A stretch of 37,344 nt of DNA, from assembly GCA_001801175.1 (NCBI GenBank), contig MGWZ01000056.1, positions 1 to 37,344 of the forward strand, read 5' to 3'. Of the stretch, positions 12,853-19,627 are shown in pieces (within the stretch, counting starts at the first letter, position 1; each line of letters starts with the position of its first letter). The notes under the pieces are model-generated. The model worked only from the letters and a program-made list of their open reading frames with translations, did no database searches and was not told the origin of the DNA. The translations under genes were made by a program, and so were the position numbers. The stretch is from Gallionellales bacterium RIFCSPLOWO2_02_FULL_57_47 (GTDB lineage: Bacteria; Pseudomonadota; Gammaproteobacteria; Burkholderiales; Gallionellaceae).

Positions 12853-14694
12853 ATGGAGCTTTCTAAATTAGTTGGCGCAGCATCGCTGCACACACGCGCA
12901 CTTATTGTAACGGCGCTGTTAGGCTTGTCATTCGGTCTGTCGGGATGCCAGGGCCCCAAGGGCGACACAGGAGCCATAGGCGCAGCACAACCCACCGGGA
13001 CCATCCAGGGCAGCCTGCGTGACAGCGTGACGCAACAGCCTATCGCCGGTGCGCTGGTGGACATTGGCGTAGCCACGGCAACCACCAATGCACAAGGTGA
13101 ATTCGTCATCGCAAACGTCGTGGTTCCCGTTGACGCGAACAACAATGTCAATGCCGCGTCCTTTCCCGTGAATATCAACTTGCGTAGCGTTTCTTCTCCC
13201 GTCAACATGGCCAGCGCCACCGCGACTCCGCGTTACCCGGATTTCTTCTACCAGACCATTCCCGTAACGTTTACGCCGCTTTATACCGCTACCGGCACTG
13301 CGACTCCAGTCACCGGCCTGGTCGCGACGGTCGATTTCCTGGTGGGCAAACTGGCTGCCAACATTACCGGCGTGGTTGCAGACAGCGTGACCAGGCAGCC
13401 GGTAGCTGCCGGCTATACCGTCAAGCTGGTCTCCCTGGGTTCAGCCAACTCAGCTACGACTACCGGCGGGACGGGCGCCGCTGAAAACATCGTTGGAAGC
13501 ACAACCACCGACGCGAGCGGCGGTTTTACCTTCGCCAACATCGAGTCCCTCCGGAACTTCCGCATCGATGCATGGAACGCCGCCCAGACCTTCAGGGGCA
13601 CCGCAAACGTGACTTCGCCTGCCGATGGCGAAACCAGAACCCTGTCTATTCAGGGGAATGACGCGGTCTTTGTGGCTTCCACCGACGTTCTTGCTCCGAC
13701 GATCATCAGCGTGACGCCGGAACAGAATGCCGACATCGCGCCTGCCGCGACCAATGTGGTGTTCACCTTCAGCGAACCCATCCTGCAGACGGCCGATACC
13801 AGTACCAGCCCTTCTGTTCCAACAGGTCTCTACAATACCGTAGCAGTCAACTTCAACGGCGCCAAGGCCAGCAATATCGCCCGCAGCCTGTCCTGGAATG
13901 CGACTTCCACCCAGTTGACGGTGAACATCCCGGCTTTGGCCGCCTCATCCAGATACTCTGTCAGCCTGGCAGGCACCGGCACGGCTCTCAGGGATGCAAA
14001 CAACAACGCAGTGACCAACATTGCCACGGCAGGAAAGGGTGTGCTTTCCTTCACCACCAACGGTTCGACAACCCCGGCCGCACCGGCGGCCGTTACCGTG
14101 ACCAACAGCGCAAGCCTTAACTACAACAGCCCCACTGTTCTGCTGAACTGGCTGCCGGTATCCGGCGCGAAAGCCTACAATGTGTATCGTGCGCAAAACT
14201 TTGCCGGTGCCAGCGGGCAGTTGCAGCTCGTTCAACCGGTGGCCGGTCAGCCATCGACTCTAACATCGAACTTTTCCGACGCTGTGCCCAATTCGCCGAC
14301 GGTTCCGTTCGTTTCCAGCCAGAGCAAGCTGACGTACACCTACGTGGTGAGGTCAGTGAGCACGGACAACGTCGAATCTGCCGATAGTATCCCCGTAACG
14401 GTGCAGGACAACGTGGTTCCAACTGCAACCATCCCGGCTGGTCTAGCGGCAACGTATACGATAACTTTTATCGAACCTGTGGATGAGGCTACGGCTACTA
14501 CCCTGGCTAACTACGTACTGACTCAGGGGGTTGCGGCATCCGTACCCGTTATCAGCAACGCGGTATTGAATGCCAATCTGACCACCGTGACTCTTACCTT
14601 GAGCGCGGCTACAGTGGCTGGCAATACACTCACAATTACGGGGGTAACAGACATAGCTGGCAATGCTATGGCCGGCGCTGCCAGGACGTTCTAA
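12853..14694 (+). CDS. large lipoprotein with Ig-like/fibronectin-like repeats
   Basis: This is a 613-residue secreted lipoprotein. The signal ends in GLSFGLSGC, with the lipidated Cys near residue 32. A single collagen-like run (GPKGDTGAIG) follows directly. Two carboxypeptidase-regulatory-like repeats begin TGTIQGSLRDSVTQQPIAGA and NITGVVADSVTRQPVAAG. Next is a Big_5-type Ig domain (APTIISVTPEQNADIAPAAT), then a fibronectin-like module (VLLNWLPVSGAKAYNVYRA), and a final Big_5-like module ending AGNAMAGAARTF. It is very rich in Thr, Ala, Asn and Val and nearly free of Cys, as expected for a surface or adhesin-like protein. AGGAG lies before the ATG. It is followed by two strong hairpins. Confidence 0.8.
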   Translation: MELSKLVGAASLHTRALIVTALLGLSFGLSGCQGPKGDTGAIGAAQPTGTIQGSLRDSVTQQPIAGALVDIGVATATTNAQGEFVIANVVVPVDANNNVNAASFPVNINLRSVSSPVNMASATATPRYPDFFYQTIPVTFTPLYTATGTATPVTGLVATVDFLVGKLAANITGVVADSVTRQPVAAGYTVKLVSLGSANSATTTGGTGAAENIVGSTTTDASGGFTFANIESLRNFRIDAWNAAQTFRGTANVTSPADGETRTLSIQGNDAVFVASTDVLAPTIISVTPEQNADIAPAATNVVFTFSEPILQTADTSTSPSVPTGLYNTVAVNFNGAKASNIARSLSWNATSTQLTVNIPALAASSRYSVSLAGTGTALRDANNNAVTNIATAGKGVLSFTTNGSTTPAAPAAVTVTNSASLNYNSPTVLLNWLPVSGAKAYNVYRAQNFAGASGQLQLVQPVAGQPSTLTSNFSDAVPNSPTVPFVSSQSKLTYTYVVRSVSTDNVESADSIPVTVQDNVVPTATIPAGLAATYTITFIEPVDEATATTLANYVLTQGVAASVPVISNAVLNANLTTVTLTLSAATVAGNTLTITGVTDIAGNAMAGAARTF

Positions 14695-14835: not shown

Positions 14836-14908
14836 TTGTTCATGTGTAGGAACCCGATTTATCGGGCGATAGCCAATCTTAAAATCGCCCGATAAATCGG
14901 GCTCCTAC
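14836..14908. repeat. paired inverted REP-like element
   Basis: GTAGGAACCCGATTTATCGGG and CCCGATAAATCGGGCTCCTAC face each other across about 20 bp, giving arms of about 24 bp. Each arm itself contains the palindrome CCCGATxxATCGGG. This is the layout of a BIME-like pair of REP sequences, a repeat style spread between genes in many proteobacteria. Confidence 0.75.
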
Positions 14909-15080: not shown

Positions 15081-15644
15081 TCAATCGTCCCAATCGGGAT
15101 AATTCGGGATTGAAACCGTATCCTCATCGAATACGCCCTTGTCGGCTTGTGTGTGGCACTTGTTGCAATGGCTCAGCGACTTCACGTCCTGGTTGCCCTT
15201 GACCATTTTCTCCGGAATATCCTGGTGTTTGCGCTTGATATAACGCACCTCGATGATGCGCAGCGGTGCCTCGCCTTCTGCCGTGGCGAGTGCAATCTTG
15301 CGCGATCGCTTGTAGAAGGATTTGTCTGCTGCGTTTTCCACCGCGTAATCATGAATGGCTTGCAGCGTGTCCCTGTCAAGCTCGGCATTGTCGCCAAAGT
15401 GGTTCTTCAATGCGTCAGCCGTCAGCAACTTCTCCCATGATCTGGCCGGCAGCAAACCCGGTTGGTAGGCGAAGTGGCAATCGCCGCATTCCTTCAGGTA
15501 CTGCTTGTCGGTGACCGGTTTCACCTCTTTGGTGCGCTGGAAATTAATCAGCCACTTTCCAAAGTTTTCTTCTGCCTGGGCATAAGTGCCATTCGTCAAC
15601 AGAACGCCCGCCAACAATGCAACAACTTTCAGTTTTTTTGACAT
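15081..15644 (-). CDS. diheme cytochrome c (DHC family)
   Basis: This is a 187-residue periplasmic cytochrome with a cleavable signal (VVALLAGVLLTNGTYAQA). It has two CxxCH heme sites, CGDCH at about residue 53 and CNKCH at about residue 159, with a helical region between. The sequence around the first (QYLKECGDCHFAYQPGLLPA) is typical of the DHC family, which is often encoded with SHP-type cytochromes and a cytochrome b. It should pass electrons between the membrane cytochrome b and a periplasmic partner. It lies 12 bp after the 206-aa membrane protein gene, implying one transcript. The partner and acceptor are inferred. Confidence 0.9.
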   Translation of the reverse strand: MSKKLKVVALLAGVLLTNGTYAQAEENFGKWLINFQRTKEVKPVTDKQYLKECGDCHFAYQPGLLPARSWEKLLTADALKNHFGDNAELDRDTLQAIHDYAVENAADKSFYKRSRKIALATAEGEAPLRIIEVRYIKRKHQDIPEKMVKGNQDVKSLSHCNKCHTQADKGVFDEDTVSIPNYPDWDD

Positions 15645-15656
15645 TATCTCGCTCCG

Positions 15657-16277
15657 TTACCAGGTCAATTTGATCGCAATACCCATGGCGATACCGCCGG
15701 CCATCCCTGTTCCCGCATGCCCGCCTTCAGGCGCCTGGGATACGGCAGCGAGCATCGCCAGCGCACCCGCCGTGCCGAGCAAAGCGTGCAGGTTGTCCGG
15801 GTCGGTCCAGCCGTCTTCCAGATGAAAGTCATCCCAGTGGGCCAGCAACCCGGTCGTTACCGTAGCCGCAGCCAGAGCGGCGGCGGCGCGGCCCAATTTT
15901 GCGTGGGTGCTTGATTTTTGTGCATCCAGCTCTGCCTGAGTCGGTGCTCTGTCTTCAATCTCTGCAGGCTTCGGGGCAATCGCCGTTGCAACGACCAGTG
16001 CCAGCGTTCCCAAACCCAGATACTTGTGGGCGTTGCTGCCCGAAAACATCGGAGGTTCAAATTCTGCCGTTTGCATTGCGGGCGTTGCGCCAGCCTGCTC
16101 CTTTACGGCACCGGTATCATTCAACGCCAGCATGTAGGATCTCGAACCGCCGGTGTAGGTGCTGGCCATGGACGGAATTACGATATCCTGCACGGTATCA
16201 TCCGCATAAACCATTCCCGATATAGCCGCCAGACAGGCACTGGCGGCAATATTTTTTAACCTCGCATTGCACTTCAT
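15657..16277 (-). CDS. unrecognised membrane protein with histidine-led helices, in the cytochrome cluster
   Basis: I do not recognise this 206-residue protein. It has a signal peptide (ACLAAISGMVYA) and a polar region to about residue 83. Four hydrophobic stretches follow, three of which open with histidine: HKYLGLGTLALVVATAIA, HAKLGRAAAALAAATVTTGL, and HALLGTAGALAMLAAVS, plus a final GMAGGIAMGIAIKLTW. The arrangement is reminiscent of b561-like heme ligation, but that is inference only. GGAG precedes the ATG. It sits between cytochrome b561 and the diheme cytochrome genes, 12 bp before the latter, so it is probably a membrane electron carrier or anchor for them. Confidence 0.65.
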   Translation of the reverse strand: MKCNARLKNIAASACLAAISGMVYADDTVQDIVIPSMASTYTGGSRSYMLALNDTGAVKEQAGATPAMQTAEFEPPMFSGSNAHKYLGLGTLALVVATAIAPKPAEIEDRAPTQAELDAQKSSTHAKLGRAAAALAAATVTTGLLAHWDDFHLEDGWTDPDNLHALLGTAGALAMLAAVSQAPEGGHAGTGMAGGIAMGIAIKLTW

Positions 16278-16565
16278 TGATTACTCCTTTAGCTAATAAT
16301 TATTCCTTGAGGGAACCCCTAAAAATCCGCATATCATCCCGACAACCGCGTTGCGCAGAAAACTTCCTGCTTGCATTTCAAACGTGTATTGCCCGGAGAA
16401 TTTATTATGTGCTTTGCATTCGGGCCAGCTCTGAGATTTTGGAAAGCCCTTGCAGCAGTTGTCACTATAGGTGCATCTACATATAAACGATAGTCAGTTA
16501 TTTTTATCCAAACCATAAGATCTTTTTATGGTTTGGAGATTCAGTATTTGCTTGCGCCCGACCGT
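16278..16565. other. intergenic region with an inverted repeat
   Basis: This 288-bp stretch splits the cytochrome cluster. It contains CCAAACCATAA (16508-16518) and its exact reverse complement (16526-16536), an 11-bp stem with a 7-base loop. Neither strand has a U run beside it, so it may be a protein-binding site or processing hairpin. The part near 16278 probably carries the promoter of the 206-aa gene. Confidence 0.5.
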
Positions 16566-17174
16566 CTACCGTAAAAATACGAACCAGAATACAACAGCGG
16601 CGGCCAGCATGATGACACCCAGCCAATTGTAACTACTCCGGATACCTTCATCCGTTTCGGCGGATTTGAAACCGGTGATCATCGAGCGCACCAGGTTTTC
16701 ACGATGCAGCACGCTGCTCACCAGCACTCCGATTACATGCAGCAATATCACAGCCAGCATGATGCTGGTCGCAATCCCGTGCAATTCCACCACGGCATCG
16801 ACGGCGTCATCCTGGAGCGCCATCACGCCGGTCACGCATAAAAAAAGTCCCAGTGCCAGAAGCAGCCAGACCGACACGCTACCCGCCGGGTTGTGCCCCA
16901 GATAATGCCCGGGCTTGCCTTTGATCAGCGATAACAGATAAGCGATGATTTCACCGAGCTTGAACAGGAACGAGCTGAACCGCGCATAGCGCGTACCCAA
17001 AAAGCCCCACAGCAATCTGAACACAATCAGTCCCAATAATATGTAACCGAACGCCATATGTATATCGCGGTTGCGTTCCGATTCCGCTGTCAAATAGGCA
17101 CCGGCGAATGAAATCGCCTGCAACCAGTGAAAAACCCTCGTTGGCGCGTCCCAAATCAAAATTCGTCGAATCAT
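16566..17174 (-). CDS. cytochrome b561 (diheme membrane cytochrome b)
   Basis: This 202-residue integral membrane protein belongs to the cytochrome b561 / Ni-Fe-hydrogenase cytochrome b class. The N-terminus IWDAPTRVFHWLQAISF has the family's helix-I heme-ligand His. Further ligand candidates are His in RDIHMAFGYILLG, VELHGIATSIML and ILLHVIGVLV. Four core helices plus a C-terminal helix (WLGVIMLAAAVVFWFVF) are visible. It probably takes electrons from quinol and gives them to the neighbouring periplasmic c-type cytochromes. GGAG precedes the ATG at 17174. It is 26 bp downstream of the SHP-like gene. Confidence 0.9.
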   Translation of the reverse strand: MIRRILIWDAPTRVFHWLQAISFAGAYLTAESERNRDIHMAFGYILLGLIVFRLLWGFLGTRYARFSSFLFKLGEIIAYLLSLIKGKPGHYLGHNPAGSVSVWLLLALGLFLCVTGVMALQDDAVDAVVELHGIATSIMLAVILLHVIGVLVSSVLHRENLVRSMITGFKSAETDEGIRSSYNWLGVIMLAAAVVFWFVFLR

Positions 17175-17200
17175 GGTGTGTTGCTCCTGTCAGGGTATTC

Positions 17201-17602
17201 TTATTTTTGAATGGCGAGCAGGTAAACGAGCATGTCGCCTTTTTCCTGGGGTGTGCAGACGCGCTCCAGAACATCGTTGCAGTTGCGCTTGAACCATTTC
17301 TCGACTTTTGCCATGTCAGTGAAGCGTTCAGCATTGGCGGACGGCGCCAAGGGCTTGATGACCTTGCCAGTTTTTGCGTGCTTGCCCTGCGCAGCCGGAT
17401 TGCCGGTATGGCAGGAAGCGCAGCTCCACTCGCCACCCTGCTTGGTCTTGAAGAAAGTCTCCCCGCGCGCAGCCGAGAATCCCTGAAAACCGGGCGCGCC
17501 CGACGCCTCGCTCTTGAAGGACGCCAGCACGCTTTCGGGTGTTTCTGCGAACGCAGCTGGCGCAGCCAATATCAAACTTGATACAAAAAGCAGACGCAAC
17601 AT
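17201..17602 (-). CDS. SHP-like (DUF1924) monoheme cytochrome c
   Basis: This 133-residue periplasmic protein has a signal peptide (LLFVSSLILAAPAAFA) and a single heme motif, CASCH, at about residue 60. The segments GEWSCASCHTGNP and VEKWFKRNCNDVLERVCTPQEKGD are characteristic of DUF1924/SHP, the sphaeroides heme protein family, which has an unusual high-spin heme able to bind oxygen or nitric oxide. The pair of additional Cys residues (NCNDVLERVC) is part of the family pattern. GGAGG precedes the ATG. It is the first gene of the cytochrome cluster, followed by cytochrome b561. Confidence 0.88.
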   Translation of the reverse strand: MLRLLFVSSLILAAPAAFAETPESVLASFKSEASGAPGFQGFSAARGETFFKTKQGGEWSCASCHTGNPAAQGKHAKTGKVIKPLAPSANAERFTDMAKVEKWFKRNCNDVLERVCTPQEKGDMLVYLLAIQK

Positions 17603-17789: not shown

Positions 17790-18749
17790 TTACCCGGATA
17801 CCTCTACTCGATTGCGCCCCAATTCCTTTGCGCGGTAAAGCGCGCGATCCGCTTCGCCGATGAGGATTTCAAGTTTCTCTTCGATCCGGGCCGGGGCAAT
17901 GCCGATCGAAATGGTAATGCGGAAAGAAATTTCGTTACAGCGTATCTCGCTGTCTGCAATCGTGGCCCGCAGCCGTTCGGCAATGGCCCTTGCTTCTTCC
18001 AGACCGGTGTCGGGCAACAGCATCGCAAACTCTTCTCCGCCATAGCGAACCAGCAGATCATGCGGCCTCAGATTTTCCGCCATGCATCTGGCAACGGCCT
18101 TTAACGCAACGTCACCGACAACATGCCCATAGGTGTCGTTTATCCGCTTGAAATGGTCGATGTCCGCAACCATGATTGCATAGGGCAAATTGTTGAACGC
18201 GCAGTTGTGCAGGACACGCGGGAAGGCATCGCCCATCCAGTGCCGGTTATGTATCCCGGTCAGCGCATCAACGCTGGCCTGATGTTCGAATTGCGCTTTC
18301 TTGTTCTGCGTAGTAATGAGCACGTTTTTGTCGTTGCGCATGCGCCCGGCGACAATACCCAGCAGATTGCGCGCAACCTCATGGGAATGGTCAACCAGCG
18401 ACCATACCGTGTCTTGCGGAATGGACATCACCCGGGTTGGTTCGGAAGCAACGACCAATGCAGATGGATGCTTGCCGTCTACAATGGATATTTCCCCCGC
18501 ACACTCACCGGCAATCAGCGATGCGTGCTCAGACGTTTCCTGCTCACCCAGGTGGACGCTTAACTTGCCGGCAAGTATCAGGTAGAGATGGTGATTCGGG
18601 ATGTCCGGTTGCAGCAGCTTCTCGCTCGCGTCCAGATTTCGCACCGAGCAGCGCTCCAGCATGTATTCGACGGTTGTGAAATCCACCCCATGAAACAGCA
18701 GGTTCTGCGCGGTTAAGGCGTAATCTTTCGGATCCATAGTCCTCGCCAT
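17790..18749 (-). CDS. diguanylate cyclase with N-terminal cyclic-nucleotide-binding-like domain
   Basis: The first 150 residues look like a cNMP-binding fold (LYLILAGKLSVHLGEQ, GECAGEISIVDGKHPSA). A linker follows, then a GGDEF domain from about residue 170 (SVDALTGIHNRHWM, VADIDHFKRINDTYGHVVGD) with an intact GGEEF active site in RYGGEEFAMLL. Such proteins make c-di-GMP in the cytoplasm. No RxxD-type inhibitory site was seen just before GGEEF. The start is uncertain: a GTG at 18788 would overlap purU by 31 bp, ATGs lie at 18749 and 18737, and the last has AGGA close by. It is directly downstream of purU on the same strand, possibly cotranscribed. Confidence 0.88.
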   Translation of the reverse strand: MARTMDPKDYALTAQNLLFHGVDFTTVEYMLERCSVRNLDASEKLLQPDIPNHHLYLILAGKLSVHLGEQETSEHASLIAGECAGEISIVDGKHPSALVVASEPTRVMSIPQDTVWSLVDHSHEVARNLLGIVAGRMRNDKNVLITTQNKKAQFEHQASVDALTGIHNRHWMGDAFPRVLHNCAFNNLPYAIMVADIDHFKRINDTYGHVVGDVALKAVARCMAENLRPHDLLVRYGGEEFAMLLPDTGLEEARAIAERLRATIADSEIRCNEISFRITISIGIAPARIEEKLEILIGEADRALYRAKELGRNRVEVSG

Positions 18750-18757
18750 TTCAGGAT

Positions 18758-19627
18758 TTATCGGAATACTATCGTTTTGTTGCCGCACACCAGCACGCGG
18801 TCTTCCACGTGATAGCGCAGGCCTCGGGCCAGCACGGCCTTTTCGATATCCTTGCCATAGCGCACCATGTCATCCACGGTGTCGCCGTGGTCGATGCGCA
18901 TCGTGTCCTGCTCGATGATCGGGCCGGCATCCAGTTCGTCGGAAACATAATGGCAGGTCGCGCCGATCAGCTTCACGCCGCGATGGTAGGCCTGGTGGTA
19001 GGGCTTGGCGCCCACGAAGGAAGGCAGGAAGCTGTGATGGATGTTGATGATGCGTCCGGCATAACGCGCGCATATATCCGGCGGAATGATCTGCATGAAG
19101 CGCGCCAGCACCAGCACATCGCCGCGCTCCGCATCGAACCGCCGCGCTATTTCTGCAAAAGCGGCGGCCTTGGCCGGTTCATTATTGCTTGGCATATCAA
19201 CGTAATGGAACGGGATGCCGTGCCACTCGACAAAGCCGCGCAACTCCTGGTGATTGGAAATGACACAGGGGATATCCACGCGCAGTTCGCCGCTACGCCA
19301 GCGATGCAGCAGGTCGTTGAGGCAGTGATCGTGCTGGCTGACCAACAGCACAACGCGCTTCCTGAAAGCGGAATCGCTGACCTGCCAGGTCATCCGGAAT
19401 TGTTCCGCCAGAGCGGCGAAGCGCGTGCGCAATTCTGCCGCATCGAACGGCAACGAATCGGCGCTGATTTCCTGGCGCATGAAAAACTGCTGCGTTTCCA
19501 GATCGGTGTGGTAACTGGCTTCTACGATCCACCCGCCATGTTGCGCGACGAAGCCGCTCACCGCCGCGACGATGCCGACTCGATCCGGACAGGAGATGGT
19601 CAGGGTGTATCGGTGGGTGGTAGTCAT
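18758..19627 (-). CDS. purU: formyltetrahydrofolate deformylase
   Basis: PurU hydrolyses 10-formyl-THF to formate and THF, balancing one-carbon pools. The N-terminal ACT domain starts TLTISCPDRVGIVAAVSGFV. The C-terminal formyltransferase-like domain contains VLLVSQHDHCLNDLLHRW, CVISNHQELRGFVEW, and the catalytic-region sequence RIINIHHSFLPSFVGAKPYHQAY with the conserved Asn and His, followed by IGATCHYVSDELDAGPIIEQD. The length of 289 residues is normal when started at 19627; the ORF-track start at 19993 is an artefact. A TAAAAT box followed by CCGCGC lies 29 bp upstream. Confidence 0.95.
   Translation of the reverse strand: MTTTHRYTLTISCPDRVGIVAAVSGFVAQHGGWIVEASYHTDLETQQFFMRQEISADSLPFDAAELRTRFAALAEQFRMTWQVSDSAFRKRVVLLVSQHDHCLNDLLHRWRSGELRVDIPCVISNHQELRGFVEWHGIPFHYVDMPSNNEPAKAAAFAEIARRFDAERGDVLVLARFMQIIPPDICARYAGRIINIHHSFLPSFVGAKPYHQAYHRGVKLIGATCHYVSDELDAGPIIEQDTMRIDHGDTVDDMVRYGKDIEKAVLARGLRYHVEDRVLVCGNKTIVFR

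Follow-up and report, generated by a model that had tools for sequence, protein, structure and literature searches.

Background

According to the texts of the papers on the iron-responsive irc cluster, the adjacent genes Slit_1321-1324 of Sideroxydans lithotrophicus encode a cytochrome b, a hypothetical protein, a monoheme cytochrome c, and a diheme cytochrome c, and are followed by Hsp33 (PMC8788666, PMC10734462). The cluster is Fe(II)-responsive, being up-regulated with Fe(II) in Sideroxydans (PMC8788666), and is common in the Gallionellaceae, as seen in 50 genomes (PMC10734462). It has been named ircABCD, with IrcC described as 'hypothetical' and predicted to lie in the inner membrane (PMC12442390), and the irc proteins have been detected by proteomics, among them Slit_1322 (PMC12016527). 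In the passages of these papers that were consulted, IrcB is not linked to SHP or DUF1924, nor IrcA to DHC, and no cofactor is given for IrcC. In this study we describe an irc-type cluster in a stretch of 37,344 nucleotides of contig MGWZ01000056.1 from Gallionellales bacterium RIFCSPLOWO2_02_FULL_57_47 (hereafter the window), with emphasis on its IrcC protein.

Two other described systems are relevant. In the SHP operon (SHP, CytB, mDHC, sDHC) of Rhodobacter and other Proteobacteria, electrons are proposed to take the path quinol - CytB - DHC - SHP (PMC2909971). PCC3 and PCC4 of neutrophilic iron oxidisers contain five transmembrane (TM) helices and two HX13H motifs, and two b hemes have been proposed for them (PMC5566968).

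In the window, four genes on the minus strand (15081-17602) encode, in the order of transcription, an SHP-type monoheme cytochrome c of the DUF1924 family (the IrcB equivalent; 17201-17602, 133 residues, one CXXCH motif), a cytochrome b of the prokaryotic b561 family (the IrcD equivalent; 16566-17174, 202 residues), a membrane protein of 206 residues (15657-16277), and a diheme cytochrome c, DHC, of the irc subtype (the IrcA equivalent; 15081-15644, 187 residues, two CXXCH motifs). The three cytochromes had been correctly identified in the first-pass annotation of this DNA, as their matches to PF09086 (2.9e-41), PF01292 (1.1e-25), and PF09626 (7.8e-35), respectively, confirm. The membrane protein, which had been called unrecognised there, is IrcC, an identification based on gene content, gene order, and the Hsp33 link of Sideroxydans loci rather than on the sequence of Slit_1322; it is still termed hypothetical, but the gene arrangement has already been published. 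As in ircABCD, genes for a cytochrome b, an IrcC-type protein, a monoheme cytochrome c, and a diheme cytochrome c lie adjacent to each other. Their order, SHP-CYTB-IrcC-DHC, is that of the Gallionella-type genomes, a variant that differs from the Sideroxydans order with its downstream Hsp33. As in the SHP operon, SHP, a diheme cytochrome b, and DHC are grouped (PMC2909971), but in the window cluster IrcC is present in addition, and the DHC is of a subtype whose heme motifs are more widely spaced (106-108 residues, versus mostly 94-96).

The cluster is, therefore, already known, and IrcC is its uncharacterised component. What is new here is the conservation of the IrcC histidines and their likely topology, the pairing of IrcC with a dedicated DHC, the identities of its partners as SHP and DHC, and its restriction, among the genomes sampled, to two families.

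Conserved histidines and predicted topology of IrcC

No Pfam or NCBIfam family matches the 206-residue protein above the cut-off, and comparison of its profile with the PDB likewise gave no match; the anatomy of the protein was derived from AlphaFold2 models, from conservation over 50 sequences, and from the homologue loci. The signal peptide ends at A25, which is invariant in the 50 homologues. Residues 26 to 79, approximately, form a predicted periplasmic arm that is weakly conserved except for the near-invariant L50, A51, and N53. Four TM helices follow: TM1 (80-100), TM2 (124-150), TM3 (160-181), and TM4 (187-205). The mean predicted local distance difference test score (pLDDT) is 81 for the full-length model; for residues 70-206, modelled on 49 sequences, it is 94.7, with a predicted template modelling score of 0.87.

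Every TM helix starts with a histidine (H84, H125, H164, and H187), and a further one, H147, is found at the end of TM2. The helices opening with histidine that had been noticed earlier are thus real, but they number four rather than three, and the second is closed by a fifth histidine. A lack of conservation of these residues, which would have spoken against a heme-binding role, was looked for. Instead, each of the five is found unchanged in 50 of the 50 homologues, which come from two distant families, and the sixth histidine of the protein, H152, is present in 42 of the 50. Only 13 of the 206 positions are invariant, and they include, besides the five histidines, D150, D159, and D161. The hypergeometric chance that five of the six histidines fall among the 13 invariant positions is approximately 2.5e-6, a simple count that disregards both the general tendency of histidine to be conserved and the relatedness of the sequences. 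The spacings between the successive invariant histidines are 41, 22, 17, and 23 residues.

The loop between TM2 and TM3 (residues 148-163; window 15789-15836, minus strand; WDDFHLEDGWTDPDNL) is bounded by the invariant H147 and H164 and is strongly acidic. It follows the pattern WDDFHLEDGxxDxDN, with E154 and D155 each present in 49 of 50 homologues, and over the 50 homologues it contains on average 5.9 Asp and Glu residues against 0.3 Lys and Arg residues. Given an exported N-terminus, H84, H147, and H164 would lie on the periplasmic side of the inner membrane, and the other two of the five, H125 and H187, on its cytoplasmic side; the N-terminal arm and the TM2-TM3 loop would both be periplasmic. 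The near absence of Lys and Arg from the loop is consistent with this predicted topology.

Like PCC3 and PCC4, IrcC is an uncharacterised inner-membrane protein with conserved histidines that is encoded in a cytochrome cluster of iron oxidisers. Unlike them, it has four TM helices with one histidine opening each and no HX13H motif, and it does not belong with them.

Pairing of IrcC with a DHC subtype

The DHC of the window matches the family profile, carries two CXXCH motifs, and matches PDB 3u99 (3.2e-35). The copies of DHC that are linked to IrcC differ from other DHCs in several respects. Their DHC domain is usually encoded by 369 or 372 base pairs (bp): among the matches listed, 50 of 52 DHCs with a domain of this length lie within 3 kilobases (kb) of IrcC, versus 17 of the 100 whose domain has another length. 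When 54 DHCs were placed in a tree, 47 IrcC-linked sequences (that of the window and 46 others) formed one group with moderate support (86/73), and a branch with support of 100/100 separated six of the seven unlinked DHCs; a single long branch, L073_3188, is uncertain. The distance between the two CXXCH motifs is 106-108 residues in the linked group, 94-96 residues in six other DHCs, and 104 residues in the seventh. IrcA is, therefore, a distinct DHC subtype that is paired with IrcC.

Association with the cytochromes, on which the first-pass annotation had made its reading depend, was also assessed over whole genomes, and its absence was looked for without being found. IrcC occupies 76 places in 150 Gallionellaceae genomes, and at least 69 of these lie no more than 3 kb from SHP or DHC among the matches listed; direct reading of the remaining seven revealed two IrcC-DHC pairs and one IrcC beside SHP and a cytochrome b. 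DHC is present in 68 of the 70 IrcC-positive genomes, versus 39 of the 80 IrcC-negative ones (Fisher test, 5e-12, uncorrected for kinship), and SHP in 67 of 70 versus 49 of 80. In the second family in which IrcC is found (see below), SHP is present in all 24 IrcC-positive genomes and is adjacent in 23. Overall, most homologue loci with sufficient flanking sequence adjoin DHC, SHP, or both. A Cyc2-like motif occurs in 53 of 70 IrcC-positive and 42 of 80 IrcC-negative genomes; the association of IrcC is, accordingly, strongest with DHC, followed by SHP, and weak with this motif. The strict Cyc2-like DNA pattern has no match in the window's own genome and may miss divergent copies. The motif was rejected as a co-occurrence marker because of the weak association and because the pattern may be blind to such copies.

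Several gene orders occur. Gallionella-type genomes have SHP-(DHC2)-CYTB-IrcC-DHC; Sideroxydans and several genomes of the second family have CYTB-IrcC-SHP-DHC; and Ghiorsea has IrcC-SHP-DHC. The Sideroxydans loci thus have the published order, and Hsp33 is found further downstream in two of them (L027 and L032). Since IrcC and DHC occur together without SHP or cytochrome b at four loci (G130, as a second copy; G137; G265; and G050), and since in L073 an IrcC-DHC pair comes after a CytB/DHC fusion, SHP, and DHC, the IrcC-DHC pair is the most reproducible unit, a separable module. In G265, SHP and cytochrome b are found together on another contig. The idea that IrcC stands in for a missing IrcD in Ghiorsea was considered and rejected, as most Ghiorsea-type genomes have a close cytochrome b elsewhere.

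In one genus (g31), second copies of IrcC occur with no adjoining cytochrome gene (L065:5771-6430, L066:3372-3977, and L064:5765-6376). They retain H147 and the W-D-D that follows it, and have Ser in place of H152. In the Ghiorsea-type loci, IrcC-SHP-DHC is followed by several small proteins with one CXXCH motif each (L033:7488-9504, L034:7721-9567, and L041:7573-10866), of which one was compared with Pfam and gave no match.

Distribution of IrcC

IrcC is present in 70 of the 150 genomes sampled of the window's family, Gallionellaceae, and in 24 of the 74 sampled of a second family (f51), which is probably Mariprofundaceae. A phylum-wide sample of 399 genomes from 213 genera yielded it in these two families alone, and in an order-level sample of 300 genomes it is confined to Gallionellaceae, except for one borderline partial match. 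The homologue loci are assigned to Gallionella, Sideroxydans, Sideroxyarcus, Ghiorsea, and Mariprofundaceae, and some only to Nitrosomonadales, Proteobacteria, or Gammaproteobacteria. Both of the families to which IrcC is restricted among the genomes sampled are known for iron oxidation. One paper also reports irc homologues in Leptothrix and Rhodoferax; clusters lacking one of the four genes were counted there, and the homologues in these genera need not, therefore, include IrcC (PMC12442390).

Identities of IrcB and IrcD

The best structural matches of the window's IrcB are cytochrome c'' (PDB 1e8e, 3.7e-25) and SHP (PDB 1dw0, 2.1e-23). The two differ at the distal-ligand position, which is His in cytochrome c'' and Asn in 1dw0. 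In IrcB it is Asn in 41 of the 41 readable homologues, and on this residue, which we take to be the heme ligand in SHP, the sequence of IrcB is classed as SHP-type. In the window's cytochrome b, H16, H39, H94, H132, H146, and H157 are invariant over 19 homologues. IrcC was also compared with this cytochrome b, and a relationship between the two was rejected (hhalign probability 0.3%; PF01292 below the Pfam cut-off).

The window's genome contains a second SHP-DHC-CytB copy, on contig 40 (L077:862-4701), which resembles the classic SHP operon (PMC2909971). It is followed by open reading frames recognised by eye as response-regulator-like and sensor-kinase-like.

Proposed role of IrcC

The reading favoured here, the chances of which we consider to be evenly poised, is that IrcC carries one or two b hemes and connects the membrane, through the quinone pool, with IrcA. 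On the periplasmic side, H84 and/or H147 would act together with H164 as heme ligands, and on the cytoplasmic side H125 would act together with H187. Through these hemes IrcC may exchange electrons, in one direction or the other, between the quinone pool and the periplasmic diheme cytochrome IrcA, which in most clusters would also serve the SHP, IrcB.

In favour of this reading are the invariance of the five histidines, which sit at both ends of the helices, the pairing of IrcC with its DHC subtype, and the published response of the cluster to Fe(II). Several observations weigh against it. IrcC has no significant match in sequence (Pfam) or fold (Foldseek) to any heme protein. Most clusters already include a cytochrome b, IrcD, and the Ghiorsea-type genomes mostly carry one elsewhere, so that there is no evident need for another heme protein in the membrane. 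Two of the second copies in genus g31 clearly have no adjoining cytochrome gene, the third (L064) being at a contig end. Finally, the invariant acidic cluster would likewise fit a non-heme metal site.

The last point leads to the most probable alternative, in which iron, copper, or zinc is bound at the periplasmic cluster of histidines and acidic residues (H84, H147, H152, H164, D150, E154, D155, D159, and D161), and IrcC does not carry electrons but serves the cytochrome chain as an Fe sensor, chaperone, or buffer. The invariance or near-invariance of the five acidic residues beside H147 and H164, the occurrence of IrcC only in families known for iron oxidation, and the lack of support for homology to heme proteins all favour such a site. 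It would, however, leave unexplained H125 and H187, which are equally invariant and are predicted to lie on the opposite face of the membrane, and we consider it unlikely.

That IrcC is a very divergent, minimal member of the eukaryotic-type b561 family (PF03188) is improbable, although the pattern of its histidines is a weak sign in that direction. Human Dcytb has the heme ligand pairs H50/H120 and H86/H159, and its H108 belongs to a non-cytoplasmic site for Fe or its chelate (PMC6123691). The five invariant histidines of IrcC match H50, H86, H108, H120, and H159 in order and predicted topology, over four core helices, as a pattern only, and the spacing of H125 and H147 is identical to that of H86 and H108 (22 residues). 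By this correspondence, H84/H164 and H125/H187 would be the ligand pairs and H147 the counterpart of H108. PF03188 is also the commonest weak Pfam match, found with 21 of 49 IrcC members (best 5.2e-4), and in hhalign alignments to PDB 5zle and 4o6y, H125, H147, and H164 are paired with H86, H108, and H120, with a score of 22.1 that falls to 14.2 when the histidines are removed. These two entries were retrieved with a consensus query, and only the PDB sequences returned were used for the alignment.

The controls weaken these signs. A reversed profile scores 20.1 in hhalign, and the maximum of 60 block shuffles is 18.1. The window's IrcC scores 14.6-15.8 bits against PF03188, below the cut-off of 23, while a reversed control reaches 17.7. 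Reversed IrcC sequences match about as well as the real ones (0.0044 for PF03188 and 0.00093 for PF01292), and the weak Pfam matches (PF03188, PF01292, and DUF4079) were rejected as evidence of homology because such controls give similar E-values. Foldseek searches with the full-length and the trimmed models gave no E-value below 0.1, and neither 5zle nor 4o6y was among the top 50. A search for PF03188 members across 249 genomes, made to obtain a better b561 profile, gave seven marginal matches, which were not used. IrcC also differs from b561 in its total of four helices, its signal peptide, and the greater length of its acidic loop. On account of the reversed-sequence, reversed-profile, and Foldseek results, IrcC is not filed as a b561; the hhalign result is no more than suggestive, and the shared histidine pattern serves as a lead to its mode of action.

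It is very doubtful that the role of IrcC is instead structural or in assembly, with IrcC anchoring or docking IrcA at the membrane near the cytochrome b and its histidines supporting structure and not cofactors: its close pairing with DHC, its periplasmic arm with L50, A51, and N53, and the usual presence of a gene for an IrcD-type cytochrome b, in the vicinity or at another place in the genome, would suit a scaffold, but five helix-end histidines among 13 invariant positions would be unusual for one.

The heme-binding reading may be extended to a wider proposal, which is tentative and which we hold with the chances leaning against it. IrcC would represent a new family of four-helix diheme membrane cytochromes b, possibly with a periplasmic iron site that, like that of Dcytb, lies next to the outer heme. 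It would have evolved with its own DHC subtype as an IrcC-IrcA electron-transfer module in Gallionellaceae and Mariprofundaceae, serving as an inner-membrane step of iron oxidation.

Should IrcC prove to be a b-heme partner of IrcA, a defined step could be assigned to a protein so far called hypothetical, and the two together would make a small system open to direct expression and testing. Moreover, an SHP-type IrcB and a DHC as IrcA tie the iron-responsive cluster to a biochemically studied system that reacts with oxygen and nitric oxide. This link may point to the handling of oxygen or nitric oxide as an alternative role of the cluster.

Transcription and neighbouring features

The intergenic gaps in the window cluster are, in the order of transcription, 26, 288, and 12 bp. 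Promoter-like sites in the region are no more numerous than in shuffled sequences; a second promoter could be present within the 288-bp gap between the cytochrome b and IrcC genes.

Directly upstream of the SHP gene, and on the same strand, lies a gene for a cyclic-nucleotide-binding/GGDEF protein (window 17790-18788), which is a possible regulator. At the other end of the cluster, a near-perfect inverted repeat, GGAACCCGATTTATCGGGCGAT and its complement with one mismatch, is found at 14849-14905, between the convergent ends of the DHC gene and the gene at 12853-14694; none is expected from shuffled sequences.

Elsewhere, an irc-type locus is adjoined by an operon for an ABC ATPase, a MacB/FtsX-like permease, a LolA-like protein, and a PF10118 metal hydrolase (L072:352-3723). 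Whole or partial versions of this operon, their likeness judged by eye, are found beside irc-type loci of both families (L007, L021, L066, L069, L078, L079, and L080); the Pfam identities of the last three proteins were checked in L072. At the start of the window, positions 14-87 match a group II intron domain (RF00029, 55.7 bits).

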